From a virus, in IMG/VR virus record IMGVR_UViG_3300006350_000121, positions 1 to 26,509 of that record: 26,509 nucleotides of DNA. One strand, 5' to 3'. Of the stretch, positions 238 to 12,900 are shown piece after piece (the first letter of the stretch is position 1; every line of letters starts with the position of its first letter). The position numbers and the translations under genes were made by a program. The notes beneath the pieces were generated by a model. The model was not told the origin of the DNA, did no database searches, and worked only from the letters and a program-made list of their open reading frames with translations.

Positions 238-244
238 AGCTATA

Positions 245-324
245 GTTCAGAGGCAGTAAGACTTTCAAGGTGAGCTAATAAATGCTCTTTAAGTCGAACT
301 TAAGCAGTAAGTCCTCTGCTTTTT
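245..324 (+). ncRNA. Candidate structured small RNA or leader with terminator-like end
   Basis: A -10 box at 232-237 predicts transcription from about 244. The RNA can fold with a closing stem CAGAGG (248-253) against CCTCTG (313-318), an arm GACTT/AAGTC (260-264 with 291-295) containing GAGC/GCTC (272-275 with 284-287), and an arm ACTTA/TAAGT (298-302 with 308-312) abutting the closing stem. A CTTTTT run follows at 319-324. The decamers GCAGTAAGAC and GCAGTAAGTC form a near-direct repeat. It is tRNA-sized but has no T-loop, anticodon loop or CCA. It could be a stand-alone RNA or an attenuating leader for the gene at 349. Confidence 0.4.
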
Positions 325-348
325 ATCCAATTTCTTTATTTACTAATT

Positions 349-774: not shown

Positions 775-950
775 TCAAATATGATGAGTGGAAAGCACTT
801 AATGATGCTTTGATGTATCTATCCAATGAGGATCAGAAAACTATCGAAAGAATCAGAAATGTCAAAATAGAAAACATACTGCCAAAAATTGATTTTTATG
901 AAAATCAAACAGCAGATTATATAGATAGAGTCAATGAAAGTACACTATGA
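771..950 (+). CDS. Small unknown protein, 59 residues
   Basis: Starts at an ATG overlapping the preceding stop (ATGA) and has one of the few strong Shine-Dalgarno sites in the small-gene block, AAGGAGG at 757-763, inside the end of the upstream gene. This makes the start secure. The product is charged and probably helical (MIKYDEWKALNDAL at the start), with no membrane segment. Its 3' end overlaps the next gene by 17 bases. I do not recognise a family. Translational coupling with the gene at 349 is likely. Confidence 0.75.
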   Translation: MIKYDEWKALNDALMYLSNEDQKTIERIRNVKIENILPKIDFYENQTADYIDRVNESTL

Positions 951-1137
951 TGTAACACTTGAATCAAGTGAGATCGAAGCGATACATATTATGGCTCAGG
1001 TTATTCGAGATCTTGAAATCGAAAAGCAAGTTGAGGAACATACAAATGCCTCAGTATATGCTATAGAAGTCAAGATGGCTGAACTTATACATTCATATAA
1101 TAAATTCAATGAAACAACAATTAAAGATGCTCCGTAA
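934..1137 (+). CDS. Small unknown protein, 67 residues
   Basis: The ATG lies 17 bases inside the end of the upstream gene, typical of coupled translation. The product opens with a short strand-like stretch (MKVHYDVTLESSEIEA) and then a helical region rich in Glu, Lys and Ile; it is acidic overall. No catalytic or binding motif is visible and I cannot name a family. It overlaps the following small gene by 11 bases. It is supported by its place in the overlapping chain 349-1279, not by similarity. Confidence 0.7.
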   Translation: MKVHYDVTLESSEIEAIHIMAQVIRDLEIEKQVEEHTNASVYAIEVKMAELIHSYNKFNETTIKDAP

Positions 1138-1279
1138 GACTATTGAATTAGCTGAAAAGGACATAACTGCGAACTATACTGAAGAAGAGATTAGGTATAT
1201 GAAGAAGAAATATCGAGAGCTCAGAGAAGAGATAAGATATGCTCAAAGACTTCAAAACAATGGATTTATGGTAGATTAA
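1127..1279 (+). CDS. Small basic helical protein, 50 residues
   Basis: Starts 11 bases inside the preceding gene and ends at a TAA (1277-1279) shortly before a terminator. The product (MLRKTIELAEKDITANYTEEE at the start) is very rich in Lys, Arg and Glu. Residues around 20-45 could form one long amphipathic or coiled-coil helix. It has no recognised domain. A minus-strand frame across this region is a shadow. Overlap, spacing and terminator support this as the last gene of the first unit. Confidence 0.65.
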   Translation: MLRKTIELAEKDITANYTEEEIRYMKKKYRELREEIRYAQRLQNNGFMVD

Positions 1280-1293
1280 ATCCAATAAAATAA

Positions 1294-1336
1294 CTGTCAC
1301 AAGGCCCTTTACGAAGGGTCTTTTTTTGTGTATAAT
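1294..1336 (+). promoter_or_regulatory. Promoter of the helicase gene with CTGTCACA box
   Basis: A TATAAT at 1331-1336 is followed by AGCTGTAT. TTTACG at 1308-1313 gives a 17-base spacing as a weak -35. The CTGTCACA box starts 37 bases before the -10, as at other unit starts. Predicted transcription begins near 1343 and leaves a leader of about 18 bases without a Shine-Dalgarno site. Confidence 0.75.
1303..1327 (+). terminator. Rho-independent terminator
   Basis: GGCCCTT pairs with AAGGGTC across a TACG tetraloop, with one G-U pair, and is followed by seven T. It ends the 349-1279 unit. It also overlaps the promoter region of the next unit, whose -10 box starts at 1331, so termination and initiation sites are packed into about 35 bases. 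Confidence 0.85.
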
Positions 1337-1360
1337 AGCTGTATCAACTGAAATTCCTTT

Positions 1361-2638
1361 ATGACCATTACATTCTTGCCTCATCAACAAAAAGCACTTG
1401 ACGTTATGAAAAACGAAGATGTAGGTCAAATCATTGTGCCAACTGGTGGCGGTAAGACTATGATTATGATGGAAGATCTCTTAAGAGATATTGACTATAG
1501 TTATGGTCAACCAACTGTATCAATCGTTGTTGCTCCTCGCCTTTTGTTATCTCAACAGTTGTGTGATGACTTCACTGAGCACTGCCGTAATCGTAAGAAT
1601 TTCAATAAGAATCAGATACAAATCGTAAATGTTCATAGTGGTAAAGGCAGTAAATTCTTTACAACTACAAAACCAAGAGATATCAAGGATGTAGTTCGCT
1701 TCAATCTATTGAATGATCGCCATACTGTGCTATTCACAACATATCATTCTCTACATCGCATTGTAGATTGTAGGATGAGAGTTCATAATGTCTATTATGA
1801 TGAGTCACACAACTCTACCGCTAAATCATTCTATACAAGTGTAGAAGCGATGGCAAAGAGAACAAATCGTTGTTACTACTTCACTGCTACGCCAAAGCAC
1901 TCATATCGCCATGATCGTGGTATGAATAATGATGATGTATATGGTAAAATCATTTGTGATATCCCTGCTCCAGAGTTAGTTGAAAAAGGTTGTATCTTGC
2001 CTCCTACAGTTGTGCCTTATGATAAAGCACATGATATGGAGTTCAGTAAGGAGACCGCTCATGTACATCATGCTCTAACTGTTAAGGATGTAGTTGATAA
2101 TGTAGTCAAGGATACTACCGCTAAGATTATGGTAACTGTGCCATCATCAAGAGTTCTAAACAATATGATAGGACATACCACACTGCTCAAGACTCTCAAA
2201 GATCGTGGTTATGATGTATTGCATATTACATCAAAATTTGGTGCTTATGTCAATAAGACTAAGGTTAATCGTACTAAATTCTTTGAGACTCTCAAAGAGT
2301 GGAGTAATGATGTAGGTCGTAAATTTGTATTGTTTCATTATTCAATACTTGCTGAAGGTATCAACGTAGCAGGCCTGACTCACACAATATTCCTTAGAAA
2401 TTTGAATATCATTGAAATGGCACAATCAATTGGAAGAGTCATTCGCCTTGATAAGGATGATCGCCAAGATATTCAAAGTGGTAAGATTGCCGCTGGTGCT
2501 TTGCAGTTCTATCGTAAATCAACTGGTTATTGTGTCATACCGACCAGTAAGCACTATAATAAGAATATTCATGGTCGAATCGAAAGAATTGTACATGACA
2601 TATTTGTTGAGGGTAAATTCTCAACTGGTTTTTGTTAA
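1361..2638 (+). CDS. SF2 DEAD-like helicase, UvsW-related
   Basis: A 425-residue superfamily 2 helicase. Visible motifs: a Q-like FLPHQQKAL (5-13), Walker A PTGGGKT (27-33), Walker B DESH (147-150), motif III-type FTATP (about 174-178), and motif VI QSIGRVIR (355-362). In T4-like phages UvsW unwinds branched DNA and R-loops and helps switch replication from origin-dependent to recombination-dependent; that role is inferred from the family. The protein starts almost directly at the Q motif, so it lacks any substantial N-terminal DNA-binding domain, and it is shorter than T4 UvsW as I recall it. It has its own promoter and is followed closely by a small membrane protein. The family call is firm, UvsW orthology moderate. 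Confidence 0.9.
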   Translation: MTITFLPHQQKALDVMKNEDVGQIIVPTGGGKTMIMMEDLLRDIDYSYGQPTVSIVVAPRLLLSQQLCDDFTEHCRNRKNFNKNQIQIVNVHSGKGSKFFTTTKPRDIKDVVRFNLLNDRHTVLFTTYHSLHRIVDCRMRVHNVYYDESHNSTAKSFYTSVEAMAKRTNRCYYFTATPKHSYRHDRGMNNDDVYGKIICDIPAPELVEKGCILPPTVVPYDKAHDMEFSKETAHVHHALTVKDVVDNVVKDTTAKIMVTVPSSRVLNNMIGHTTLLKTLKDRGYDVLHITSKFGAYVNKTKVNRTKFFETLKEWSNDVGRKFVLFHYSILAEGINVAGLTHTIFLRNLNIIEMAQSIGRVIRLDKDDRQDIQSGKIAAGALQFYRKSTGYCVIPTSKHYNKNIHGRIERIVHDIFVEGKFSTGFC

Positions 2639-2646
2639 ATAGTACT

Positions 2647-2838
2647 ATGAATAAAAAAGGATACAAAACTGGTTATGCAATCGGAGCTGTAGCGGCAACG
2701 ATTGCTATTCTATTTGGGCAAGCATGGCTCACTCTTCTCATTTTTAGTTGGTTCAATTTAAAACTGACTATCTGGCAATGCTTGCTGATCATTGTATTGA
2801 TCAAATCGATCACAGCGGTAGTTGATAAGGACAGTTAA
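2647..2838 (+). CDS. Small membrane protein with two predicted transmembrane helices
   Basis: A 63-residue protein with two hydrophobic segments, roughly residues 8-31 and 38-58, separated by a short polar turn, and a Lys-rich N-terminus (MNKKGYKTGY). I chose the ATG at 2647 over an in-frame TTG at 2632, which would overlap the helicase stop; neither has a ribosome binding site. It begins 9 bases after the helicase stop, so the two probably share a transcript. Its role is unknown; small inner-membrane proteins of this kind are common in phage early regions. Confidence 0.7.
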   Translation: MNKKGYKTGYAIGAVAATIAILFGQAWLTLLIFSWFNLKLTIWQCLLIIVLIKSITAVVDKDS

Positions 2839-2842
2839 ATTA

Positions 2843-2875
2843 GTGGCACACAATATATTGAAATTGGTCTATAAT
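2843..2875 (+). promoter_or_regulatory. Promoter with GTGGCACAC box, short spacing
   Basis: TATAAT at 2870-2875 is followed by AGAGTATTATAG. GTGGCACAC starts at 2843, only 27 bases before the -10 where the others have 36-39. The 10-base difference is about one helical turn. No consensus -35 is present. Confidence 0.6.
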
Positions 2876-2891
2876 AGAGTATTATAGCCAT

Positions 2892-3455
2892 ATGGGAAAC
2901 AAATTCATCCCTTTTGAATTTGTTTCTCCCACCTATTCTTTATTTCATTTTAAACTTATGGTTGCTTCTTACATCACTGCTCAGCAAGAGATCGCTGAAA
3001 GAGTTAGTACATGGGCTGATCAACTTGCCGAGTCGCTCACAGAAAACTATAGAAGATACCATATCAGAATGTTAACTCAAAATTCAGTACGTTTCGCTAA
3101 AAAAGACAATGGAAGTGTACTTGGTTATCGCCCTGACTTATCTGACTATGCCAATCAGCAACTTGCTGAGATCGAAAATGGCACTGCGAAGTTAATGAAG
3201 TTTAAAGTGTATACTGGTAAGAAATACTACAAGATCGTTCAGCAAAATTTCGATACATTTCAAAACAGAAATGAGTATCGTGATGGCAGTGTGAATTGCT
3301 TTATCGATAAGAAAACTGGCGAAGTTTACAAGCCTGCATCATGGAAGGCGCCTGCCAAGCACGTTCGCTATGATATGAGAATTATTCAGCAACGTGAATA
3401 CTTACTCAATCCTGACAATATAGATTGGGCTGGTGGCTATCTCTACATGAGATAG
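2892..3455 (+). CDS. Conserved phage protein with GEVYKPASWKAPAKH motif, unknown function
   Basis: A 187-residue basic soluble protein. The stretch VNCFIDKKTGEVYKPASW (about residues 135-152) followed by KAPAKHVRYDMR resembles a motif I recall from hypothetical proteins of many tailed phages. The N-terminal half is helical and charged (IAERVSTWADQLAESLTENYR). The start is uncertain: the ATG at 2892 is only about 10 bases after the predicted transcription start, and an in-frame ATG at 2958 would give a protein beginning MVASYITAQQEIAERV, which looks more like a natural N-terminus. It is the only gene in its unit. Gene reality is strong, function unknown. Confidence 0.85.
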   Translation: MGNKFIPFEFVSPTYSLFHFKLMVASYITAQQEIAERVSTWADQLAESLTENYRRYHIRMLTQNSVRFAKKDNGSVLGYRPDLSDYANQQLAEIENGTAKLMKFKVYTGKKYYKIVQQNFDTFQNRNEYRDGSVNCFIDKKTGEVYKPASWKAPAKHVRYDMRIIQQREYLLNPDNIDWAGGYLYMR

Positions 3456-3468
3456 ACCACTTAAATAA

Positions 3469-3510
3469 GTGTCTACTTGACTTGCAAATTAGACACTTAT
3501 CCATTATAAT
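3469..3510 (+). promoter_or_regulatory. Promoter with inverted repeat over the -35
   Basis: TTGCAA (3482-3487), 17 bases, TATAAT (3505-3510), then AGCTGTATAC. A perfect 9-bp inverted repeat, TAAGTGTCT at 3466-3474 and AGACACTTA at 3491-3499, brackets the -35 hexamer. It looks like an operator or a transcript hairpin. The GTGTC box starts 36 bases before the -10. Confidence 0.7.
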
Positions 3511-3534
3511 AGCTGTATACAAAACAAATTTTTC

Positions 3535-3699
3535 ATGATCAAACTTGGCACTTCAGTTCAGCATAAACTACATGATGACCTAAACGGCGATGTAGTTCAA
3601 CTCAATAGAAGCAGTAATACTGCTACTGTTAAGTATTGGATTAACGACTATGAACCAATGCTTGTATCTTGCTACCTATCTGATTTGGAGGTTGCTTAA
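3535..3699 (+). CDS. Small unknown protein, 54 residues
   Basis: First gene of the third long unit, about 18 bases after the predicted transcription start and with no Shine-Dalgarno site in its A-rich leader. The product (MIKLGTSVQHKLHDDLNGDV at the start) looks beta-rich, with alternating hydrophobic residues in VVQLNRSSNTATVKYWI, compatible with a small barrel or DUF-type fold, but no family is recognised. Its TAA is followed directly by the next ATG, consistent with coupled translation. The GGAGGTTGC at its 3' end can serve as ribosome binding site for that next gene. Confidence 0.72.
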   Translation: MIKLGTSVQHKLHDDLNGDVVQLNRSSNTATVKYWINDYEPMLVSCYLSDLEVA

Positions 3700-3876
3700 A
3701 TGAAAACATTTGTAATCGAAGAAAAATTCGTTGGTTATGCCAATATAACCATTGAAGCAGAAAACGAAGAGCAAGCAATTGCTCTATACAATCGTGGACA
3801 TTATCCTGATAATTCATATGACATGGATGATATGTTCTATGACTATCAATTCAATTCAATTCAAGAGGCTTCCTAA
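3700..3876 (+). CDS. Small acidic unknown protein, 58 residues
   Basis: The ATG follows the preceding stop without a gap (TAAATG), with GGAGG about 10 bases upstream. The product has the pattern FVIEEKFVGYANITIEAENEE, then QAIALYNRG, a ferredoxin-like strand-strand-helix arrangement often seen in small phage proteins that begin with an MKTF or MTTY strand. The C-terminus is strongly acidic. The gene at 7014 has the same opening pattern (strand, IEAD or IEAENEE, then a DAI or QAI helix), so the two may be distant paralogues. Function unknown. Confidence 0.74.
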   Translation: MKTFVIEEKFVGYANITIEAENEEQAIALYNRGHYPDNSYDMDDMFYDYQFNSIQEAS

Positions 3877-4014
3877 ATGACAATTCCAACTTACGATTTT
3901 CCACACTCTCCAATTTTGATTATTGGATTCTTCGGCATTCTCACAGCGCTTGTAGTGCTATTTGTTGCCAATCGTTCTTACTTCTCAAGTCCATTGAATG
4001 AGGATAAAAGATGA
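3877..4014 (+). CDS. Single-pass small membrane protein, 45 residues
   Basis: Starts directly after the previous stop and ends in an ATGA overlap with the next gene. Residues about 13-31 (ILIIGFFGILTALVVLFVA) form one clear transmembrane helix, followed by a polar tail ending NEDKR. No signal peptide cleavage site is evident. The DNA contains a TTTTCCACA at 3897-3905, which encodes Asp-Phe-Pro-His here and is probably chance. The role is unknown; the position inside a tightly coupled gene chain supports its being translated. Confidence 0.7.
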   Translation: MTIPTYDFPHSPILIIGFFGILTALVVLFVANRSYFSSPLNEDKR

Positions 4015-4205
4015 AAAACGATCTCTCGAAGCTCTCAGAATTGATACAGCAGGATATTACATTTTATCTCGATGGCGAAGAACCGCTTGTAATCGAGAAT
4101 ATTTGTGATATCATAGTAAAAAGATTTGAGCAAGTCAATGCTCCATCAGCAAATATTGCTGAATTAAATCATTCTCTATCCAACTATTTTAACTCAAATG
4201 TCTAA
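4011..4205 (+). CDS. Small acidic helical protein, 64 residues
   Basis: Overlaps its upstream neighbour by four bases (ATGA) and its downstream neighbour by eight, so it belongs to the same coupled operon. The product is acidic and mostly helical (MKNDLSKLSELIQQDITFYL, then ICDIIVKRFEQVNAPSANI), without cysteines, membrane segments or known motifs. It directly precedes the GIY-YIG/ParB-like gene. A functional link is possible but only suggested by the overlap. Confidence 0.72.
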   Translation: MKNDLSKLSELIQQDITFYLDGEEPLVIENICDIIVKRFEQVNAPSANIAELNHSLSNYFNSNV

Positions 4206-5439
4206 AAACATTGTAGAAACAATTATTCCTGCTCCGCCAAATGACTACGAAGCATACTTGTATAAGTGGACGAACTTAGACAATGCTCGAATGTATGTTG
4301 GTTGGCACAAGGGCTCAGTTAATGATGACTATAGTCATTCAAGCTCAGATGATGAGTTTGCTGATGTATTTCAAGATTCAGAAAGCAAACTGAAATTTGA
4401 AGTGATGCAGTATGGAAGTGCGAAAGAAATTCAAAATTCAGAAGCAACTTATCTGAGAAGAGTCAATGCTGCCAAAAATCCACAATACTATAACAAGTGG
4501 AATGGATTTGTGGAGTACGAAGAGCCTGATCTTGAAAAATGTCAACAGTTAGTTCAGCAGATTCAAGATGGCATTTATCCAATTAATCAAGAATTAATCA
4601 AAGATCATATCGGCATGGAATATCTCCAAGTCAGAGAAAAACATGATGATGAACTTCAAAGAGAAATTCGTGATAAAATAAATGATGCTCTTGGCAATAC
4701 GGAAAAGTGTAATCCAGTTATCATCTTTGCGGAGAGAACTGCCAATGGTGCGGATTTAAGAGTAGATGGGAATCATACTGTATTTGGTTCTGCACAAGCG
4801 AAACACGCTCGCTATATTCCAGTTATCACAATTCCAGCAAATGTTGCTGCTGAATTTAATGAAACTGAAATTCGCACAATCGCTAATTTGCTGAATAAGA
4901 AACCTGACGTAACCAAAAAGCCCGTAAGCGATGAGGATGCTATCAAGTATGTCATTACAAATGCCGATAAGGGTATTCCATATAACTCTCAGGTTAACAT
5001 TACTGCTTTAGAAAGTTTTGGATTCGCCAAAAAGAAGATCACAACCATACTGAAGAAGGCGAAAAAAGAACTTGATGATCGGGAGGATAAACGCTCTGGT
5101 CAGTTATTCATTAACTATTCTGCCTATCCTGATAAGACTACACTTCTCAATCGTACCAAGAGATTTGCTGCAAAAGACAATACTTGCTCAGTATATATGT
5201 CAAGTCGTAAATTCTCAATCGAGAGAATACTGGAAGAACTGTATAGTGGCAAGCAAGATAACGTCAAACATTGTGTGGTCGTTATCCATCATCCTGATAA
5301 AGATGCTGCAAAGCACTGGAAGAAATCAGTACAGCCCACATGGTTAGACATTATCGATCATATGAATATGGAAGAATGGAGTATTACATTTGAAGAAATG
5401 GATACTCACAAGCCTGATCCTGATTTTAATGAAGACTAA
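4198..5439 (+). CDS. GIY-YIG-like nuclease domain joined to a ParB-like domain
   Basis: A 413-residue protein. The N-terminal part carries a GIY-YIG-like pattern: YLY at 20-22, YVG at 33-35, a candidate metal ligand E82 in NSEATYL and N99 in YYNKWNG. The middle has a ParB/Srx-like motif, VIIFAERTANGADLRVDGNH with DGNH at 190-193, then a helical region (about 230-305) that could be helix-turn-helix. The C-terminal 100 residues are unassigned. GIY-YIG domains cut one DNA strand per site; ParB-like folds bind CTP or ATP or act as nucleases. Homing, host DNA attack or a modification role are all possible. The GIY-YIG call is moderate because the first motif is degenerate (YLY for GIY). Confidence 0.72.
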   Translation: MSKNIVETIIPAPPNDYEAYLYKWTNLDNARMYVGWHKGSVNDDYSHSSSDDEFADVFQDSESKLKFEVMQYGSAKEIQNSEATYLRRVNAAKNPQYYNKWNGFVEYEEPDLEKCQQLVQQIQDGIYPINQELIKDHIGMEYLQVREKHDDELQREIRDKINDALGNTEKCNPVIIFAERTANGADLRVDGNHTVFGSAQAKHARYIPVITIPANVAAEFNETEIRTIANLLNKKPDVTKKPVSDEDAIKYVITNADKGIPYNSQVNITALESFGFAKKKITTILKKAKKELDDREDKRSGQLFINYSAYPDKTTLLNRTKRFAAKDNTCSVYMSSRKFSIERILEELYSGKQDNVKHCVVVIHHPDKDAAKHWKKSVQPTWLDIIDHMNMEEWSITFEEMDTHKPDPDFNED

Positions 5440-5659
5440 GTTAAAGTATGTAAAAAGGAAGGATGAAAAACTCTTTCCTTGCCGTACAATGCCATGGAGA
5501 GTGGAGAGTCGCATAGGTATGAACTTATGTTGGTTCTATAGAATAGACCAAGTTGAGGATTATGTCAAGAAATTCAATTTAAAGCCCAAAGACTATCGGA
5601 TTATGTTAAATGCGAATGTTAAATTAGAGAATTTGCCCAATCAACTGTATATTTTCTAA
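5429..5659 (+). CDS. Small basic unknown protein, 76 residues
   Basis: I place the start at the ATG at 5429, which overlaps the end of the GIY-YIG/ParB-like gene by 11 bases; an in-frame ATG at 5390 would add 13 residues and overlap far more. The product is Lys/Arg-rich with several aromatic residues (CWFYRIDQVEDYVKKFNLKP) and ends NQLYIF. The TMPWRVESRIG segment is reminiscent of small cyanophage proteins but I cannot name a family. It is the last gene of the unit begun at 3535. The repeat-rich spacer follows immediately. Confidence 0.66.
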   Translation: MKTKLKYVKRKDEKLFPCRTMPWRVESRIGMNLCWFYRIDQVEDYVKKFNLKPKDYRIMLNANVKLENLPNQLYIF

Positions 5660-5942
5660 ATGGCTGAAAAAATATGGCTGTGTATTCTATATGGATTCTA
5701 TAAAGAGTGAATATGGATGTATATCTGATTATTAACTGATAATGGCTGGGGTTGTTGTTGTCTTTACCTGACCCCTATCGAAAGATTGGCAATGCTATGT
5801 ATAAGCTCAGAGAGCTTCAGAGGACCTCAGAGGCCTCAAATTATTAACATATTAGAATTATTAACATATATGCCATGGCATTCTATCAGAAATACTGTTA
5901 AAAGTCAAGGGCGCTCAGATTATTAACATATATGGCTGAGGT

Positions 5943-5965
5943 TTTTCCACAGGGGTTGTGGAAAA
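5943..5965 (+). promoter_or_regulatory. Inverted pair of cyanobacterial-type DnaA boxes
   Basis: TTTTCCACA (5943-5951), GGGGT, then TGTGGAAAA (5957-5965) is a perfect 9-bp inverted repeat. TTTTCCACA is, as I recall, the DnaA-box consensus reported for cyanobacteria. It lies between ATTATTAAC copies at 5919 and 5981. A transcript hairpin is the alternative, but no T-run follows on either strand. Confidence 0.5.
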
Positions 5966-6008
5966 CTCGGAAAACTTCAAATTATTAACATATATGCTAT
6001 GAGTATTG

Positions 6009-6037
6009 TTGACAGTCTCCGAGCTTTGTGTTATAAT
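6009..6037 (+). promoter_or_regulatory. Consensus sigma-70 promoter
   Basis: TTGACA (6009-6014), 17 bases, TATAAT (6032-6037), with an extended TGT directly before the -10. It is the closest to consensus in the window and lacks the GTGKCACA box. The ATTATTAAC copies at 5981 and 6055 bracket it. It drives the genes at 6066 and 6288; the first ATG is about 22 bases after the predicted start. Confidence 0.85.
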
Positions 6038-6065
6038 ATATAATGTAATCGCAAATTATTAACTA

Positions 6066-6260
6066 ATGTATTATACTATTAGTGACCTATTTGATGATGA
6101 GGAGTTAGCATTGATTCTAGACAGTTTATATGCCGAAGAATTATGTGCTGATGACGAAACCTTACGGGCGAAATTATCGTCAATAAGTAAAAAGATATCA
6201 TCTCTTATTCAAGAAGAATATGAGATCGAATCTGTTGAAGACTGCTGCGAGTATCGGTAA
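6066..6260 (+). CDS. Small acidic unknown protein, 64 residues
   Basis: Starts three bases after an ATTATTAAC repeat and ends at a TAA that forms the edge of the next repeat. The product is strongly acidic (MYYTISDLFDDEELALILDS, then YAEELCADDETLRA), probably helical, with Cys residues near the middle and end and no membrane segment. It reads from the consensus promoter at 6009-6037. I do not recognise a family. If the repeats are operators, this is the gene most directly under their control. Confidence 0.72.
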   Translation: MYYTISDLFDDEELALILDSLYAEELCADDETLRAKLSSISKKISSLIQEEYEIESVEDCCEYR

Positions 6261-6287
6261 TTATTAACAAATTATTAACATATAAGT

Positions 6288-6461
6288 ATGCAGTATCGAG
6301 ATTTATATGATGAATTAGGGAAGATGAGTGAGGAGCAGTTGGCAGCAACTGTTTTAATATATGATATCACGTTACAGAAATTATTCCCAGCGGAGCATAA
6401 TTTAAATTATGCAAATGGTCGGGATGATATAACGAACGGGCATCCGTATATTTCCTACTAG
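6288..6461 (+). CDS. Small phage protein beginning MQYRDLYDEL, unknown function
   Basis: A 57-residue protein starting two bases after the last repeat. The pattern MQYRDLYDELGKMSEEQLAA, then TVLIYDITLQKLFPAEH, is like small cyanophage proteins I recall in which a helix ending MS(D/E)EQL is followed by a beta strand ending in YD. The C-terminus (DITNGHPYISY) also fits that group. It probably shares a transcript with the gene at 6066. Function unknown. Confidence 0.75.
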   Translation: MQYRDLYDELGKMSEEQLAATVLIYDITLQKLFPAEHNLNYANGRDDITNGHPYISY

Positions 6462-6488
6462 TATAATATTACAGCATGTAACGAATCT

Positions 6489-6529
6489 ATTTGGATTCAA
6501 TTTGGATCATAACATAATAATATTTGGAT
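6489..6529 (+). repeat. Three ATTTGGAT copies in helical phase
   Basis: ATTTGGAT begins at 6489, 6500 and 6522, so the copies are 11 and 22 bases apart and would face the same side of the helix. They lie between the stop of the gene at 6288 and the terminator at 6565. They may be a small protein-binding site or part of a decayed sequence. Confidence 0.5.
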
Positions 6530-6539
6530 CACATCGAAT

Positions 6540-6589
6540 AAAAACCGCTTTATAAAGTGGCACACCGCTTCACCAGAGGCGGTTTTTTT
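6540..6589 (+). terminator. Terminator with alternative hairpins
   Basis: CCGCTT (6565-6570), loop CACCAG, AGGCGG (6577-6582) and seven T form a standard terminator. An upstream AAAAACCGCTT (6540-6550) can also pair with the AGGCGGTTTTT side or with AAGTGG (6555-6560) over a TATA loop. The longer pairing would also act on the minus strand. Confidence 0.85.
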
Positions 6590-6599
6590 ATGTCATAAT
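6557..6599 (+). promoter_or_regulatory. Promoter with GTGGCACAC box
   Basis: An extended TGT-CATAAT -10 (6594-6599) is followed by AGCATTATAAATC. GTGGCACAC starts 37 bases upstream and lies inside the terminator stem region. No -35 consensus is seen. The leader before the ATG at 6625 is about 19 bases, A-rich and without a Shine-Dalgarno site. Confidence 0.68.
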
Positions 6600-6624
6600 A
6601 GCATTATAAATCAAACAAATCTTT

Positions 6625-6861
6625 ATGATTCAAGAATTTACTAGAGCAGAATACGAACTGCTTTATTCCGCTTTCAAATCTTACAGAGTCTATATGACTA
6701 AGGAAGAGGAAGTTATGTCCGAGAAAATTTTGGACAAAGTATTCTATCCTAGCTTTGATGCCAAGCAATCCGAATCACCATTTATGGATACTTGGGAAAA
6801 AGAACAGCAGCTATTAGTCGAAGATGCTGAAGAAGCTTTGAGAATGGAGCTAACCGACTAA
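6625..6861 (+). CDS. Small acidic unknown protein, 78 residues
   Basis: First gene of a four-gene unit. The product is acidic and helical (EFTRAEYELLYSAFKSYRVY, then a C-terminal EDAEEALRMELTD), with no membrane segment or known motif. The pattern of a small phage protein starting with a helix and rich in Tyr is common in this block. Its stop shares an A with the next start (TAATG), so translation is probably coupled. Function unknown. Confidence 0.76.
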   Translation: MIQEFTRAEYELLYSAFKSYRVYMTKEEEVMSEKILDKVFYPSFDAKQSESPFMDTWEKEQQLLVEDAEEALRMELTD

Positions 6862-7013
6862 TGGAAATGACAACTATTGATGTATGGGATATGCTCACGG
6901 ACAGAGAGCGAGAGACAATCACCGATCTCTTAATGGAAGCATACGTTAGAGAAACTAACGAAATGCCATTTTTATTTGAAGTTCAAACTAACATTATCGT
7001 GGAGGCTGATTAA
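6861..7013 (+). CDS. Small unknown protein, 50 residues
   Basis: Starts at the TAATG overlap with the previous gene and ends directly before the next ATG. The product opens MEMTTIDVWDMLTDRERETI and continues with a predicted helix and a beta-like C-terminus (FLFEVQTNIIVEAD). It is acidic, with no recognised domain. An in-frame second ATG two codons in (MTTIDVW) is an alternative start. Support comes from the tight spacing on both sides. Confidence 0.7.
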   Translation: MEMTTIDVWDMLTDRERETITDLLMEAYVRETNEMPFLFEVQTNIIVEAD

Positions 7014-7181
7014 ATGACTACTTACAGAGTCAAAGTCAAACAAGTCTATATTGAGACTATGTTTATTGAAGCAGATTGTGAAGATGATGCTATTCAGCTG
7101 ATGTGGAGCGAGGATTATGAACCTGCTGATGAAGAATACAAATCAGCAGAAGCAGAAGTTTTAAGTGTGGAGGCAGTATAA
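7014..7181 (+). CDS. Small acidic protein, 55 residues, possible paralogue of the 3700 gene
   Basis: Begins immediately after the preceding TAA, with GGAGG about 9 bases upstream. It opens MTTYRVKVKQVYIETMFIEA and continues DCEDDAIQLMW, a strand-strand-helix layout matching the gene at 3700 (FVIEEKFVGYANITIEAENEE, then QAIALY). The C-terminus is very acidic. Both are middle members of short operons. I infer a shared small fold; no function is known. Its stop overlaps the next start as TAATG. Confidence 0.73.
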   Translation: MTTYRVKVKQVYIETMFIEADCEDDAIQLMWSEDYEPADEEYKSAEAEVLSVEAV

Positions 7182-7312
7182 TGAATTTAACTCAGCAAGC
7201 AATTAAGTTTCTATCAACTGAAGATCTCATGGCAGCTCTTAAAGAAGATCTGGACCCTGATGTACATGATATGATATCATACGAATTATTTGAGATCAGA
7301 GAAACCACTTAA
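7181..7312 (+). CDS. Very small unknown protein, 43 residues
   Basis: Starts in a TAATG overlap, preceded by GGAGG at about 7169-7173, and ends at 7310-7312 inside the first arm of the following hairpin set. The product (MNLTQQAIKFLSTEDLMAAL at the start) is acidic and probably two helices. It has no known domain. Coupling, ribosome binding site and the terminator just after it make it a credible gene despite its size. Confidence 0.65.
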   Translation: MNLTQQAIKFLSTEDLMAALKEDLDPDVHDMISYELFEIRETT

Positions 7313-7350
7313 GAAAGTGGCACAAGCGCTACACCATTACCGCCACTTTT
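7305..7350 (+). terminator. Terminator with competing hairpins
   Basis: AAAGTGGC (7314-7321) pairs perfectly with GCCACTTT (7342-7349), with four T at 7347-7350 closing the stem. CCACTT (7305-7310) can instead pair with AAGTGG (7315-7320) over AAGA. The two structures exclude each other, as in an attenuator. The long 20-base loop and short T-run make this a weaker terminator than those at 1303 or 9426. Confidence 0.6.
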
Positions 7351-7361
7351 ATGGTTATAAT
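7317..7361 (+). promoter_or_regulatory. Promoter with GTGGCACA box
   Basis: TATAAT at 7356-7361 is followed by GGACCTATAAACAAA. GTGGCACAA starts 39 bases upstream, inside the hairpin stem. No good -35 is present. The leader to the ATG at 7393 is A-rich and lacks a Shine-Dalgarno site. Confidence 0.65.
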
Positions 7362-7392
7362 GGACCTATAAACAAATTAATCAATTAATTTT

Positions 7393-7605
7393 ATGTCATT
7401 TTTCCATTACGTTGAATTTACCGACTACGAACTAACAGAAGCAGATATGCTCCGTTGCTGTTATGATGAAGTCGTTGCTGAAGCGAAGGATACTGGCGAT
7501 TTTCCAATGTATTCCGAAGCGGGTCTATGGAGTGCCGCTTCTTTCAAACTTCAAGATTTCAAAAATTGGATGCGCCCTTTATTCTATGATGTAGATGAGG
7601 ACTAG
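7393..7605 (+). CDS. Small acidic unknown protein, 70 residues
   Basis: First gene after the promoter at 7356. The product opens MSFFHYVEFTDYELTEADML and is rich in aromatic and acidic residues, with a predicted helix around LRCCYDEVVAEAKD and a Trp-containing C-terminus. It is soluble and shows no catalytic motif. Its stop lies eight bases into the next gene. The family is not recognised. Confidence 0.75.
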   Translation: MSFFHYVEFTDYELTEADMLRCCYDEVVAEAKDTGDFPMYSEAGLWSAASFKLQDFKNWMRPLFYDVDED

Positions 7606-7756
7606 CCCCGAACAGCACGAAGTGCTATATTCCAAAATCTATGAGCTAGTAGAGCTAGACATAGATTTTGAAGTAGATGACGAGGACCTATTGAATGCCT
7701 GTAGGTCCGTCATCTGGAATCTGGAGCTAGATAAACGATTCTATCATAAAAATTGA
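7595..7756 (+). CDS. Small acidic unknown protein, 53 residues
   Basis: The ATG lies 11 bases inside the end of the upstream gene, with a GATGAGG just before it. The product (MRTSPEQHEVLYSKIYELVE at the start) is acidic in the middle and basic at its end (LDKRFYHKN), probably helical. It is the last gene of a two-gene unit. No terminator hairpin with a T-run follows within 50 bases, so transcription may continue into the next unit. Confidence 0.68.
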   Translation: MRTSPEQHEVLYSKIYELVELDIDFEVDDEDLLNACRSVIWNLELDKRFYHKN

Positions 7757-7813
7757 ATTGTTACGAAATGTTTCAGTACCAACATAAACGCTAATTTATT
7801 CGCCAAGATCCTT

Positions 7814-7819
7814 TATAAT
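7814..7819 (+). promoter_or_regulatory. -10 box six bases before a start codon
   Basis: TATAAT followed by AGACAC lies at 7814-7819. The next gene's ATG is at 7826, where transcription would be expected to begin, so the message could be leaderless. Only a weak match to the GTGKCACA box (AGTACCAAC at 7775) is found 38 bases upstream, and there is no -35 consensus. Confidence 0.5.
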
Positions 7820-7825
7820 AGACAC

Positions 7826-8005
7826 ATGAGCACATTACATCACGAATCAATTCTTGAAGACTGCTTTGAGCAAGCTATCGAGAATTTCAGAGTTCATAAC
7901 GAACTAACCGCCAAACAAATGGACGAGCTAATAGTTTGCTCCTCTGGCACTCGCTCTCATCTTGAGAAGCAAGCACACAAATTATTCGAGGAACTTTGCC
8001 AATGA
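7826..8005 (+). CDS. Small unknown protein, 59 residues, possibly leaderless
   Basis: The ATG at 7826 lies six bases after a TATAATAG box, so the predicted 5' end falls on or next to the start codon. The product (MSTLHHESILEDCFEQAIEN at the start) is helical with His, Glu and Lys in the second half (RSHLEKQAHKLFEELCQ). No motif is recognised. Its stop overlaps the next start as ATGA. If the -10 is not used, it would be read from the 7356 promoter. Confidence 0.68.
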   Translation: MSTLHHESILEDCFEQAIENFRVHNELTAKQMDELIVCSSGTRSHLEKQAHKLFEELCQ

Positions 8006-8271
8006 ATGAAAATTTCTTAGATTTCGTAGACTACTGCTATAGCTTCTATGGAGCAGAAGATGCCCTCTATCCAATGGGCGTAACCAAAGAACAGATAGCA
8101 TATGCTACGCTGATGTATTTGGACGCTTGTGCCTACTATGAAAAGGTTAACAATGAAAACTGGAAAGGACCTGCCCTTGTACCTATGACATGGGGCGATG
8201 GCGATTCGCTAGACAGAGAGAGAGTAAGAGATATCCTGGCACAGAAGTATTCTATACCACAAACGGTATAG
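8002..8271 (+). CDS. Conserved small phage protein with FYG..YPMG motif
   Basis: I start this 89-residue protein at the ATG at 8002, in an ATGA overlap, rather than the TTG six bases upstream. The pattern FLDFVDYCYSFYGAEDALYP followed by MGVTKEQIAYAT and a C-terminal GDSLDRERVRDIL matches a family I recall in cyanophages and other phages, whose hallmarks are FYG, YPMG.T and DRE.VRD. It is acidic and soluble, with unknown function. Its stop is buried in a perfect 8-bp hairpin (8251-8272). Confidence 0.82.
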   Translation: MNENFLDFVDYCYSFYGAEDALYPMGVTKEQIAYATLMYLDACAYYEKVNNENWKGPALVPMTWGDGDSLDRERVRDILAQKYSIPQTV

Positions 8272-8272
8272 A
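8251..8272 (+). promoter_or_regulatory. Perfect 8-bp hairpin at a gene end
   Basis: TCTATACC, loop ACAAAC, GGTATAGA. The second arm contains the TAG stop of the gene at 8002. No T-run follows, so it is not a standard terminator; it may slow 3' decay or bind a protein. Confidence 0.55.
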
Positions 8273-8283
8273 ATCGGTGACAA

Positions 8284-8311
8284 TGTGTGCCAGAAATATT
8301 AGTGGCACACA
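8284..8311 (+). promoter_or_regulatory. Inverted repeat containing the GGCACACA box
   Basis: TGTGTGCC (8284-8291) and GGCACACA (8304-8311) form a perfect inverted repeat with a 12-base spacer. The right arm is the conserved box that precedes promoters here. The arrangement suits a dimeric regulator. It could also be a short transcript hairpin, but there is no useful T-run. Confidence 0.5.
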
Positions 8312-8345
8312 AAATCACCATTCCGTTTGCTATTGACGTTATAAT
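8302..8345 (+). promoter_or_regulatory. Promoter with GTGGCACAC box
   Basis: TATAAT at 8340-8345 is followed by AGCATTGTAAACAAA. GTGGCACAC starts 38 bases upstream. There is no -35 consensus at 17 bases. Unlike its peers, the leader does contain AAGGAC about 10 bases before the ATG at 8379. Confidence 0.7.
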
Positions 8346-8378
8346 AGCATTGTAAACAAAACAAAAGGACTTATTTAA

Positions 8379-8597
8379 ATGAGACTTTCACCAATCGGAT
8401 CTAACATGACAGAAGTCGAAACAGACAATGCTCGTGTTTTATTCTCATACCGCACACCAGTTGCTGCTTACATCTTTGGCACAGGATTTGTCAAGACCTC
8501 TACATGGTACAGCACAACAACATCTCGCCACATCAACAAATGGGGTGCTAAAGAAGGTAAAGAAGTAGACCAAAAAATCCTCGATGCATTATGCTAG
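8379..8597 (+). CDS. Conserved phage protein beginning MRLSPIGSNMTEV
   Basis: A 72-residue protein. The pattern SPIGSNMTEV, then VLFSYRTPVAAYI, then KTSTWYSTTTSRHINKW matches a small family I recall from many cyanophages and other phages: a compact beta-rich domain with a closing helix. It has a recognisable ribosome binding site (AAGGAC) and heads a chain of small overlapping genes running to about 9154. Its last codons overlap the next ATG by seven bases. Function unknown. Confidence 0.85.
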   Translation: MRLSPIGSNMTEVETDNARVLFSYRTPVAAYIFGTGFVKTSTWYSTTTSRHINKWGAKEGKEVDQKILDALC

Positions 8598-8731
8598 AGG
8601 ATATTTTCACGGATGAGGAATTATCCGCTATCGAGTCGATGTGCCGAGACTACGCCGACTATGGTGACGAGGCAGCAGCAATTGCTGACTCAATCATTGC
8701 TAAAATCTATTCACCCGCTGGACATGCTTGA
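8591..8731 (+). CDS. Very small acidic protein, 46 residues
   Basis: The ATG lies inside the end of the preceding gene (overlap seven bases). The product, MLEDIFTDEELSAIESMCRD at the start, is acidic and helical, resembling the opening of the protein at 6066 (DLFDDEELALILDSLYAEEL). The similarity in D/E-F-DDEEL suggests a related short motif or a common small family. It overlaps the next ORF by eight bases. Supported by the overlapping chain. Confidence 0.68.
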   Translation: MLEDIFTDEELSAIESMCRDYADYGDEAAAIADSIIAKIYSPAGHA

Positions 8732-8801
8732 AGTATGGATCGCCATCTTTCTACTGATGGCGACAAATTATGCCCTTTCTATTTTTGGTTTATCATTATG
8801 A
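8724..8801 (+). CDS. Micro membrane protein, 25 residues
   Basis: A 25-codon ORF that overlaps the previous gene by eight bases and the next by four (ATGA). Nearly the whole product is one hydrophobic helix (MLEVWIAIFLLMATNYALSI plus five more residues), so it would be a membrane micropeptide. No ribosome binding site is obvious, so translation would rely on coupling. It may instead be only a linker between its neighbours. Confidence 0.5.
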   Translation: MLEVWIAIFLLMATNYALSIFGLSL

Positions 8802-8926
8802 ACGAACTCGCTGACATTTTTGGTGCTGATTCTGAAGAAGCACTGCTCTTAGGACAGTTAGATGCTGCCGCCGTCTTTATGGAAGAGGATTTTGATCCTA
8901 CACCAGCTACGGAGGAATATGCTTAG
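8798..8926 (+). CDS. Very small acidic protein, 42 residues
   Basis: Starts in an ATGA overlap. The product opens MNELADIFGADSEEALLLGQ and ends in an acidic, Pro-containing tail (EEDFDPTPATEEYA). No family is recognised. An in-frame upstream ATG at 8735 would give a longer product with an unlikely N-terminus, so I prefer 8798. The end carries GGAGGA (8909-8917 region), a good ribosome binding site for the following gene. Confidence 0.65.
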   Translation: MNELADIFGADSEEALLLGQLDAAAVFMEEDFDPTPATEEYA

Positions 8927-9083
8927 CCCAGAGGCATACGAAATACTCAAAGACCCAAGCCCCACTATTGAATTTTACTTCCTAACAACATGGCATCAAG
9001 CACAAAGACCACCGTCCGCTACTGGTTTAATCAACAACCACAGGCACGCTACATCTCATTCCAAGCCTACAGGCATGCCCTAG
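8919..9083 (+). CDS. Small protein overlapping the next gene in another frame, 54 residues
   Basis: The ATG has a strong Shine-Dalgarno site (GGAGGA a few bases upstream). The first 25 residues, MLSPEAYEILKDPSPTIEFY onward, look natural. From about residue 25 the product is rich in Pro, His, Ser and Thr and runs antiphase to the better-looking ORF at 8990, sharing 94 bases with it. So either the two genes truly overlap, or the C-terminal half is non-functional. A frameshift joining its start to the 8990 frame is another explanation. Confidence 0.5.
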   Translation: MLSPEAYEILKDPSPTIEFYFLTTWHQAQRPPSATGLINNHRHATSHSKPTGMP

Positions 9084-9154
9084 AGTATGTGGAGAATGTT
9101 ACAAAACTTGAAGATCCAGACTGGCGAGCAGAGATTGTACCTTATGCCGTCTAG
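8990..9154 (+). CDS. Small unknown protein, 54 residues
   Basis: The product (MASSTKTTVRYWFNQQPQAR at the start) looks like a real protein: basic and beta-like at first, then a helix (FQAYRHALEYVENV) and an acidic Trp-containing stretch ending IVPYAV. It overlaps the 8919 ORF by 94 bases in a different frame. No ribosome binding site is seen before the ATG, so it may depend on coupling or be the original continuation of the upstream ORF. No family is recognised. Confidence 0.6.
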   Translation: MASSTKTTVRYWFNQQPQARYISFQAYRHALEYVENVTKLEDPDWRAEIVPYAV

Positions 9155-9180
9155 AATAGAACTAACAAATTAAATGCCAC

Positions 9181-9417
9181 ATGATCATTAATTCACCCGC
9201 CATCACAGAGTCTAGAGAGCAACTCATCGCCCAAGGCTACACAGTGAAGGTGCTAAGACCTCGCCGCCCTCGTAAGGGTGAGCTAGTCATGAGTATGACA
9301 AAGGGCATAAGAACTAACACAAATCGCAGAGGGCAGGCACATTCTGCCCACGCCCTACGTCCTGAGACCAGCATAATTGCTGGCCCAGAGGGCAGCTATT
9401 TTAAGACATCTGGCTAA
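9181..9417 (+). CDS. Basic unknown protein, 78 residues
   Basis: Last gene before the strong terminator at 9426. The N-terminal part has a beta-alpha-beta look (IINSPAITESREQLIAQGYT then VKVLRPRRPRKGEL). The rest is basic and Ser/Gly-rich (TNTNRRGQAHSAHALRPETS) and probably disordered. No catalytic motif is seen. It is in relatively GC-rich DNA compared with its surroundings. Start choice is by the first ATG after the previous stop; no ribosome binding site is evident. Confidence 0.6.
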   Translation: MIINSPAITESREQLIAQGYTVKVLRPRRPRKGELVMSMTKGIRTNTNRRGQAHSAHALRPETSIIAGPEGSYFKTSG

Positions 9418-9425
9418 CAGAAGTC

Positions 9426-9467
9426 AACGGGGGGCCAGGGCCAGTTGTTTGGCCCGCCCCCGTTTTT
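9426..9467 (+). terminator. Strong GC-rich terminator at a module boundary
   Basis: AACGGGGG (9426-9433) pairs with CCCCCGTT (9457-9464) and GGGCC (9438-9442) pairs with GGCCC (9451-9455) over AGTTGTTT, followed by a T-run ending at 9467. It is by far the most GC-rich structure in the window and separates the small-gene block from the virion block. Confidence 0.92.
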
Positions 9468-9688
9468 ATGGCGAAAACCGCTGACTCCCCTAATCTATAA
9501 CGGACCAAACTCGACCTCTAAAAATATCGAGATTTGAAAAATTTTTCGCCAGAAAAATCCGTCTGAGGCCTCGATGAATCCCTTACATTTCTCATATGCG
9601 TACATTCTGACAGAACGAGAAAAATAAGAAAACTAAAAAGTAACTATCACTATATAATTTTATGTAATGCACTATACAATATACTTAC
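9468..9688 (+). other. Non-coding spacer between modules
   Basis: A 221-base spacer without a credible gene. It holds a TATAAT at 9653-9658 without a matching -35, and a distant inverted pair GGCGAAAA (9470-9477) and TTTTCGCC (9543-9550). Possible late-type promoters here cannot be told from AT-rich background. Confidence 0.5.
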
Positions 9689-9871
9689 ATGTCAAATTTT
9701 GATACAAGTACAGAAATACTCTATGATGAAGTAGACGAGAATCATACAGTGGCAATACCAGAGGATCTTTTAGAAGAATTGGAATGGAAAGAAGGCGATA
9801 TTTTGGAATGGGAGTATCACGACTATAATGGACTTCCAGGCCTTCGCCTACATAAAGTAGGCGATGATTGA
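9689..9871 (+). CDS. AbrB/MazE-like (SpoVT-AbrB fold) protein, 60 residues
   Basis: A 60-residue acidic protein. The stretch NHTVAIPEDLLEELEWKEGD, then ILEWEYHDYNGLPGLRLHKV, has the swapped-hairpin pattern of AbrB/MazE-type DNA-binding domains: strand, IPEDLL helix, WKEGD turn, then strands. Such proteins are transition-state regulators or antitoxins; small stand-alone members occur in cyanophages as I recall. No toxin gene is adjacent. It stands alone between the GC-rich terminator and the first virion gene, so a regulatory role at the switch to structural genes is an attractive inference. It is unusually acidic for a DNA binder. Confidence 0.78.
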   Translation: MSNFDTSTEILYDEVDENHTVAIPEDLLEELEWKEGDILEWEYHDYNGLPGLRLHKVGDD

Positions 9872-9947
9872 GAGAGTTCTCTCGAACTACTTAAAGAATA
9901 CTCTAAGATTCTCTCAGGCATACGGCACGTAGCGTTTTTCATATAAT

Positions 9948-12900
9948 ATGAGTACTGCAAACTCTGGTATAAACTGTTCTAATTCAAGAGAGGAAGCAAA
10001 AGCCTCTGTTGTAATTCAATGTCCACAGAAAAATAATAAACCTTCCTATCTAAGAAGACTCGGAGAATCCTTTGATTATATTGAGTCTGTCTATAACGAG
10101 GTGCAACCAATTACTTTAACGAATGGTACTCTTCGGGAGCAATGGGATAATTCGGGTGATCCAAGATTTCAGCAATATAACGTAGACACTGGCGCAGCGA
10201 TTTTCGAGAACTATTGTAGAATGGATAAAGGTATCGATGAAGGATACTTCTATCATCTATGGAACTTCCCTACGAGTCATCAATCAGTTAAAGATATTTT
10301 AATTAAGTATGTACCAATCTGTTTAGATTCGGACGGTGATCCGACTACAAATTGTGCTGGAGCAGGTTATTCTGCAGCAACAGGTGGTTCATGTACAAGA
10401 AAAGCAAAGATAACCAATAATTTTACATTAGATCGAGTTGATATAGATATCAGTGGTCTACCTACAGTTGAAGAACCTTATGTTTATAAGGCAGGAACAA
10501 CTGACGCTTCAATCATCTTTACATATAAAAATGATACTAGAACTGTAGTTAAGGCTGGAGATGTCATTAACGGTCATACAGTGACCTCTGTGGTGAACTT
10601 TTGTGATACTCGTACCGAACAAAAGAGAATCCATCGAATTATCGGTGACTCTGCCTTTATACTGAATAATGTAAAGAATATACAGGTTGGAGATGTTGTC
10701 AGAGGATATTTGGATGAAGAGACTCAATTTCCTACAGGTTTGACAGTTAAAACGATTACTACTTCTACAAATCGTATTGATTTGAATTTACCAAGTGGTT
10801 TTCAAGGATTTAATCGAACTAAACGTAGAAAACTTAGAAATATTACAATTACCGCAGCAGAACCGAATAAAATACCAAGTACAAATTATTGTTTTGCAAC
10901 TATAGCAACAAATGTAACTCTTGGAAATAAACAAGTAGGATTTAAAATTGAGGGGCCTGGGATACATGATAATGACTGGCAGTTCACTACTAACCTAAAT
11001 GGTAACTGGACAAATCAAAAAGTATTCAATGAAGGTGGAAATGCGATCTTTAATTCAGCAGAGACAAGAACATATACAATTAACAAGGGTGGTGCAACCA
11101 TTACTGTTGTGGCAGAAGTCATCGATGATGGTGGAGAGTATGATACAAACTGGTATATTTCCAACTGGACTGGTGAACTTCCTGATATAGGTAGTACTTT
11201 TCAGTCTACACAGAATGGAGGACGAGGAAATGTTGTCATTAAGTTCAAGGTTGAGGGTACACCTGATACACTTACGACTGATGGAGGAGACTTTACAAAG
11301 GATGCTGAGTACACAGCAAGTCTTTCTGGTGCAGTAATTAACGTAAGAGCGGGTTGGGGTATCATAGATCGTGCAGCAATGGTCGGAATTATCATAAGTA
11401 AACGTAAAGATGTACTCTATGAACCTGTTTTTACGAAAGAAGATAAAATTATTGGTCAAGAATTGAATTTATTAAAGCAAGATTTTCCAGGCTTGAACGA
11501 TTTAGGTGCAGTTAGAGAGGCAGAGTACCTTCCTACAGTCGTAGATAGTCCTTGTGACCCTTATTTAACTCCAAATACAGAGGTTCCGACTAATGTGGGT
11601 ACAGCAGATAACACTACTTCCTTAGCTTCAAGTGGTAATTCGACTATTTCGAGTAAAATTAACGCAAAAATTGATGAATTAGCGGGTACTTCCTCTGTAA
11701 CAGACATTTCTGATGCGATTCAGACCATTACTATTGCAGAAACTTCGGTAGAAACCGTAAATAACAACCTATCAGAGGATGTAAAGTCCAATATTGCGAA
11801 AATTAAAGGAAAAGAACCTGGCGATAACAATGAAGTTGAACTTACTACGAAGCAAGATGCGAGTGTAAACACTCTAATTACGAATATTCTTGATAAATTC
11901 AAGGAAATTCCCGATGATATGAATACATTGATACCAGATTCCGTTCCAAGCTTGGCAGATCAGGTAGATGGAGAGAATATTGGTGAAGTTGAGCTTAGAA
12001 AGAACGCATTTCGTGATCTTCCTGTAAAACAAGACGGAATGTACTTTCTTGTAGAGGATCTTTCACTAACAGATTCATCTTATGAGAATATTGGTAAAAA
12101 TGCGAATAGAGATACGATTATTGCGAATGTATTACCACGATGGACTTACGGAAGTCCTACAGTGGGTACAGAAGTCGCTGGAGAGACAGAAATAATAATT
12201 CCAGGCACTGCATTAGGTGGTACAAGTCCAGATAATGACCTAGGCATACTTGTAATAGGTGTAAATGACTCAACAGGTGCAATTACAGAGTATGAAGTAC
12301 AAACTGACGCTGTTCCTAAACTTGCATATACATCAATATCACCTTCTTCACAACCTACACAACAAACTAGGACAACTTTTGACGTAACTGCATCTGGAGG
12401 AAACTATAATGTTGCAATTAATACAGCTGCGACAAATGATGCGAATAGAGTAGGTCAACAATTCATCATTAGAGGAGGTTTATTGGGTGGATCTGATGGA
12501 ACTGATACAAATGATAATAATGACTGCTTTATAACCGTTACAGGGGTCTCTGGAACGACTATAACTACATTTGACGTTAATGGTTCATCTACAGGAGCAG
12601 CTACTTTTACTGGTGTATCACCAACTATTGTAAATGGAACGTTTGATGTCGGTGTTTCGTGGGTAAGTACTGCAAGTACGACTGATGACGTATATACCGT
12701 ACAAGTTACGCAAGAAAAAGCAGGAAGAGGGTTTTTAGTGGGTGATGTACTCCGAATCAACGGAAGTACACTTGGAGGAACAAATACTACCCATGATCTT
12801 GATATTACGGTAACTGCGGTTGACTATGTGGGTGGAATCTCGGAATTGACCTTTGCTGGTACTCCAGAAACACTCTATACAGGCGTTAGTGGTACAAACA

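Follow-up and report, generated by a model that had tools for sequence, protein, structure and literature searches.

The window analysed here, a stretch of 26,509 bases from a T4-like cyanophage, is an entire IMG/VR record. By protein similarity search its uvsW-type helicase shares no more than about 50% identity with the uvsW of known phages, and each of the 418 phage records that match it is named as a Synechococcus or Prochlorococcus phage, a cyanophage or a marine phage. The uvsW gene (from 1361) and gp25 (from 15230) are 12.6 kb apart, with many mostly small genes between them, and the gp25 and gp6 baseplate genes come after this small-gene block. The longest stretch lacking a plus-strand ORF of at least 50 aa runs from 5660 to 6065, and a DNA similarity search of the phage collection with 4198-6900 gave no match. 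The features referred to below are as follows.

1361-2638, plus strand: uvsW-type helicase, the left syntenic marker (protein family match)
5728-5736, plus strand: ATTATTAAC, copy 1 (exact match)
5752-5790, plus strand: TTGTTGTCTTTACCTGACCCCTATCGAAAGATTGGC, probable diverged copy of element 2, upstream of the boxes (best PWM score in the whole window, a weak 11.1 bits; suggestive only)
5840-5848, plus strand: ATTATTAAC, copy 2 (exact match)
5857-5865, plus strand: ATTATTAAC, copy 3, the first of three exactly 62 bp apart (exact match)
5919-5927, plus strand: ATTATTAAC, copy 4 (exact match)
5943-5951, plus strand: DnaA-box-like TTTTCCACA, left arm (exact match; conserved site family)
5957-5965, minus strand: DnaA-box-like TTTTCCACA, right arm, inverted, 5-bp spacer (exact match)
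5981-5989, plus strand: ATTATTAAC, copy 5 (exact match)
6009-6037, plus strand: sigma-70 early-type promoter, TTGACA-N17-TATAAT with extended -10 TG (12/12)
6055-6063, plus strand: ATTATTAAC, copy 6, immediately 5' of the ORF at 6066 (exact match)
6066-6260, plus strand: ORF of 64 aa, 3' of the promoter (matches no Pfam or PHROGs family)
6260-6279, plus strand: ATTATTAAC, copies 7 and 8 (6260-6268 and 6271-6279), 5' of the ORF at 6288 (exact matches)
6288-6461, plus strand: ORF of 57 aa, PHROG 17540, unknown function (E 1.9e-07)
15230-15679, plus strand: gp25 baseplate wedge, the right syntenic marker (Pfam and PHROGs match)

A strong intrinsic terminator at 6564-6583, 3' of the ORF at 6288, is identical in the relative L027 and may end the transcript from the promoter at 6009. 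The 413-aa protein encoded at 4198-5439 belongs to no Pfam or PHROGs family and has distant relatives, at about 30% identity, in SynMITS9220M01 and the marine virus AG-345-O18. A SET-domain protein is encoded at 14880-15179, immediately 5' of gp25, and its relatives are present in four IMG/VR loci with the TTTTCCACA palindrome.

A direct-repeat array surrounds an inverted pair of DnaA-box-like sites

All eight exact copies of ATTATTAAC in the window lie on the plus strand within 5728-6279, with none elsewhere, and those at 5857, 5919 and 5981 have an exact spacing of 62 bp. Exact matching thus bears out the first-pass annotation, which had described eight copies, three of them at this spacing, around a perfect inverted pair of TTTTCCACA and a consensus promoter. 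When 5660-6290 was dinucleotide-shuffled 2,000 times, no 9-mer reached more than five copies, compared with the eight observed, and 200 shuffles of the whole window yielded no 9-mer with more than five copies per 550 bp. Several of the copies fall between the stop codon of one short ORF and the start codon of the next. The same annotation had assigned the array to the longest gene-poor stretch of the window; this is correct for 5660-6065 when plus-strand ORFs of at least 50 aa are counted, but the array also spans a probable gene. Since the repeats extend past this gene, at 6066-6260, as far as the start of a second probable gene at 6288, the array is not wholly intergenic.

The perfect inverted pair, TTTTCCACA-ggggt-TGTGGAAAA, occupies 5943-5965 and accounts for two of the three exact TTTTCCACA sites in the window, where 0.48 are expected. 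This 9-mer is the cyanobacterial DnaA box (PMC4674748), as the first-pass annotation had it. Repeats of AATTATTAACATATA lie on both sides of the pair and make up a candidate AT-rich unwinding element. The 12/12 promoter at 6009-6037 is the sole such match in the scanned part of the window (1-10000), and AT-rich sequence lies directly 3' of it.

The relative L027, which is 93-95% identical, keeps all eight ATTATTAAC copies and has one extra, three copies occupying the site of copies 7 and 8 of the window. Its TTTTCCACA palindrome is unchanged and both promoter hexamers are kept, the three substitutions within the promoter all falling in the spacer. Between the two sequences the array core (5791-6008) differs by one substitution in 218 bp, compared with 3.9% in the flanking sequence (p = 0.002), a difference that is not decisive alone because 6518-6755 is equally unchanged.

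ATTATTAAC also lies beside the boxes in two other cyanophages, with four copies in L148 and three in L121, numbers that were reached in none of 5,000 shuffles for each; there, as in the window, the repeats have the same orientation as the uvsW or gp25 gene. The unit is therefore not unique to the window contig; it may serve as a melting sequence or as a site for a second protein. Lineage-specific repeats gather at the boxes: some 9-mer occurs at least four times in 20 of the 101 box loci listed, compared with about 2% of background windows. A separate IMG/VR scan for three ATTATTAAC copies spaced 40-70 bp apart returned 23 stretches, among which only the close relative was equivalent; most of the others were set aside as chance matches or as repeats with periods of 66, 72 or 75 bp, multiples of three such as repetitive coding sequence would give.

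Box clusters recur between uvsW and gp25

We listed all exact TTTTCCACA sites in 20 complete T4-like cyanophage isolate genomes, placed gp25 and uvsW in them, and defined a cluster as two or more boxes with neighbours at most 60 bp apart. Clusters are found in 14 of the 20 (S-PM2, S-RIM32, P-TIM68, DSL-LC03, S-CREM1, S-WAM1, S-SZBM1, Syn9, Syn1, Syn19, S-SM1, S-SM2, S-SSM5 and S-ShM2). In S-BM3 a single exact box is grouped with three that have one mismatch each, and exact clusters are absent, among these 20 isolates, from P-RSM6, SynMITS9220M01, P-HM1, P-SSM2 and S-RSM4. Six of the isolates (S-PM2, S-RIM32, P-TIM68, S-BM3, DSL-LC03 and S-CREM1) were obtained through a box query and are biased for that reason; four (S-WAM1, P-RSM6, S-SZBM1 and SynMITS9220M01) came from protein similarity, and ten were chosen by name when their boxes were not yet known. 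Seven of these last ten have clusters, all in the uvsW-gp25 interval. Of the four phages with a recorded Prochlorococcus host, three have no cluster, a sample too small for a judgement on any link with the host.

In the 17 isolates with a uvsW match, the interval makes up 8.3% of the sequence and contains 49 of the 79 exact boxes (p ~5e-33) and 17 of the 17 clusters (p ~4e-19), the density of exact TTTTCCACA being about 18-fold that elsewhere. DSL-LC03, for which there is no uvsW match, has seven boxes in 460 bp, arranged in two clusters that both lie upstream of gp25; most isolates have just two to five boxes. The module is located at 19.2 kb in S-PM2 and at 52.6 kb in Syn9. In Syn9 a small annotated ORF, gp86, overlaps the boxes, so that annotation does not in every genome leave the site intergenic. 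T4, taken as an outgroup, has two single TTTTCCACA sites and no cluster.

The same placement is seen in uncultivated genomes. A scan of IMG/VR for TTTTCCACA-N3..8-TGTGGAAAA returned at least 120 stretches, and among the matches listed the palindrome is upstream of gp25 in all 54 loci that could be placed relative to that gene and downstream of uvsW in all 14 that could be placed relative to uvsW. A second scan, with a tandem pattern, placed the boxes of newly fetched loci upstream of gp25 in 21 of 21 and downstream of uvsW in 5 of 5, bringing the two scans together to 75/75 and 19/19, respectively, among the matches listed. Inverted spacers are 3-6 bp long in the 135 palindrome instances among the matches listed, with 4 bp in 88 of them, and extra boxes are often present near the palindrome in the IMG/VR loci listed. 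Box clusters are thus a family feature at one syntenic place rather than a quirk of the window contig. The first-pass annotation had suggested seeking the array in related cyanophages: box clusters recur between uvsW and gp25 in most isolates, and ATTATTAAC itself is present in L027, L148 and L121.

Two further observations concern the distribution of the motif at large. Among 107 new tandem-box loci (L367 onward), 63 have none of the cyanophage block genes that were tested for and span GC contents of 0.27-0.67; some of these tandem-TTTTCCACA contigs may represent other phage groups with DnaA boxes. The palindrome also has at least 118 scattered matches across phyla in the bacterial genome collection, which have no visible pattern and were taken as background.

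S-RSM4 (L344, reverse complement, ~11560-11990) has no TTTTCCACA at all, although its AT tract, element 2 and a promoter-like site are still present. Because the rest of the module is kept here without exact boxes, DnaA boxes are not universal at this locus. Repeats of the GAGAATCAAT type occupy the place of the boxes in S-RSM4, and a change of initiator is possible.

Architecture of the module

The spacing of neighbouring boxes is helically phased, at 11-12 or 20-22 bp for tandem pairs, 12-14 or 23 bp for inverted pairs and mainly 19 bp for divergent pairs, which argues for a DNA-bound protein over an RNA hairpin. Across 80 loci, AT content peaks immediately beside the boxes, reaching 73% in the first 20 bp compared with 61% for the loci overall, and A-tracts lie no more than 50 bp away. 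Of the 75 distinct loci, 41 have a promoter matching at least 11 of 12 positions no more than 300 bp from the boxes, compared with 7.9% of background windows. These promoters are mostly downstream of the boxes and aimed at gp25, with the boxes typically 50-200 bp upstream of the promoter. These motifs, their conservation and synteny, the helical phasing and the association with promoters are all features of the DNA as it stands.

A further motif, element 2, with a family form of roughly GTTGTYGTCTTAGCRCGCNNCCTATCGATTGTCAAC, lies about 100 bp downstream of the boxes in many isolates and is near the boxes in 63 of 227 box loci, where 0.006 per locus is expected. It was scored on both strands with a small hand-made PWM, and reaches 34-40 bits, downstream of the boxes, in most of the isolates from which that PWM was built. 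The L027 counterpart of the candidate copy at 5752-5790 has the best PWM score in L027, at 16.8 bits. Distances between the parts of the module are variable, and the layout of the window differs in its closer promoter and in having element 2 on the opposite side of the boxes. Read on the opposite strand, element 2 of the isolates and of the window (5752-5790) resembles TTGACA-N17-TAAGAC with TGC before the second hexamer, and is perhaps a divergent promoter. Long AT-rich inverted repeats (CTCAAAATCTG... and its complement) are found just 3' of element 2 in S-PM2 (L327), Syn1 (L335) and S-RIM32 (L155).

A candidate replication origin and its alternatives

We lean towards the view that 5728-6279 represents, in this phage, a conserved origin-like module that carries DnaA boxes and is most likely a replication origin. 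DnaA binding, melting, priming and origin activity are inferred, in the following way. Host DnaA would most likely bind the TTTTCCACA pair, and DnaA and the AT-rich ATTATTAAC iterons would together open the DNA. The adjacent host-type early promoter is proposed to supply transcription, and probably with it the RNA primer for the phage replisome, through an R-loop as at T4 oriF. Precedents exist in T4 for each part of this mechanism other than DnaA: oriF for the location, the promoter, the AT stretch and the R-loop, and oriE for the iterons and the early promoter. A broader and more tentative proposal, which we regard as plausible but slightly less likely than not, is that T4-like cyanophages as a group have a single conserved origin in the uvsW-gp25 interval to which host DnaA is recruited, and so represent a DnaA-using branch of T4-type replication. 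Such a branch would combine DnaA boxes with a promoter and AT tract of the oriF kind, and in box-free relatives such as S-RSM4 the locus would be served by another initiator.

The first-pass annotation had already put the array forward as a candidate origin. The conserved syntenic boxes, the early promoter, the AT tract and the T4 oriF location strengthen that proposal, but the boxes are not universal, as S-RSM4 illustrates. We also count against an origin the variable distances between parts, the promoter and element 2 layout of the window, the box-free isolates and a T4 review free of DnaA. A turn in skew near the array had been offered as a check; the window is a genome fragment, and six related complete genomes have at most a local dip at some boxes and no global turn. 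GC skew thus gives an origin no clear support. Skew is a weak origin test in these phages because it probably follows gene direction.

The main rival is a DnaA-controlled early promoter: host DnaA at the boxes would activate or repress the adjacent sigma-70 promoter and so time the expression of the small early genes, and the site would not act as an origin. More than half of the distinct loci combine the boxes with a strong promoter, which is mostly aimed into the small-gene block and usually has the boxes 50-200 bp upstream of it, all as such control would have it; most boxes, however, stand further upstream than simple activation or occlusion would allow, and the AT tract and iterons are left unexplained. 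In addition, Syn1, S-PM2, S-RIM32 and S-CREM1 have boxes and an AT tract and no plus-strand promoter of at least 10/12 in the next 360 bp. We judge promoter control without origin function to be rather unlikely. A DnaA sink and a different DNA-binding factor are less likely still. The datA locus of E. coli is a DnaA sink, and the phage clusters could likewise titrate host DnaA and halt host chromosome replication, a role for which perfect boxes clustered at inverted and tandem spacings, up to the seven in 460 bp of DSL-LC03, would be suited. The two to five boxes of most isolates are few for titration until the phage replicates, and the fixed position, promoter and AT tract are not needed by a sink, yet are conserved; we consider this function improbable.

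To a similarly small degree we entertain the idea that a phage-encoded or other host protein reads TTTTCCACA, perhaps as part of a site for recombination or packaging. The module of S-RSM4, kept without exact boxes, and the presence of element 2 as a second conserved motif beside the module are in keeping with this, but the exact 9-mer is the host DnaA consensus, and the boxes are helically phased in several arrangements, as expected for DnaA sites. An RNA element, with the inverted pair forming a hairpin in an early transcript and ATTATTAAC acting as translation or processing signals between tiny ORFs, seems to us very improbable. The stretch does fold better than its shuffles (-15.6 kcal/mol, z -2.8), and five of the eight ATTATTAAC copies close a short ATG ORF; the palindrome, however, is upstream of the promoter, in many relatives the boxes are tandem, not inverted, and in phase with the DNA helix, and the stretch has no Rfam match. 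The related idea that ATTATTAAC serves to close tiny ORFs ending in NY* or DY* was dropped as a main explanation, and one mini-ORF between copies differs in length in L027.

Comparison with known origins

If the module is an origin, as we favour, it shares features with several known types. Iteron plasmid origins combine direct repeats and DnaA boxes with AT-rich DNA, as the module does, but the window iterons are only 9 bp long and unevenly spaced. No Rep-type initiator gene was recognised among the window ORFs scanned against Pfam and PHROGs, where the ORFs at 4198 and 6066 match no family. The cyanobacterial chromosomal oriC has the same DnaA box, TTTTCCACA, in several copies (PMC4674748), whereas the module has no recognised dnaN or dnaA nearby and most of its boxes form inverted or tandem pairs at short spacing, next to a sigma-70 promoter.

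T4-like cyanophages are abundant viruses of the ocean's main photosynthesisers. The start of their DNA replication is assumed to follow that of T4 (PMC2984593), and a review of T4 replication describes its origins without mention of DnaA (PMC3016281). A single theta origin was once predicted for Syn9, according to a citation in PMC2984593, and Syn9 carries the box module. In the open-access literature covered, no earlier account of DnaA boxes in this phage group came to light, a scope that does not amount to proof of novelty. A conserved module with a host DnaA site offers a defined locus in which to search, and a testable connection between the replication of the phage and the control of replication in its host.

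The closest parallels are with T4 itself. T4 oriE combines evenly spaced short direct repeats (12-nt iterons) with a promoter of the early mode, and lies close to a small early gene (PMC3016281); it differs from the module in its repeat and its map position, and no DnaA boxes have been described there. T4 oriF, or ori(uvsY), initiates from a promoter and an AT-rich stretch via an R-loop (PMC3016281). That promoter, which in T4 is a MotA middle promoter, stands beside an AT-rich unwinding stretch, as in the module (PMC3016281); no iterons or DnaA boxes have been described at oriF, and no uvsY is annotated in the Syn9 uvsW-gp25 interval. Nevertheless oriF (at 115321) lies between uvsW and gene 25, in the same neighbourhood as the cyanophage module. 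This shared position next to gp25 raises the possibility that the origin locus is old and that only its initiator sites have changed.
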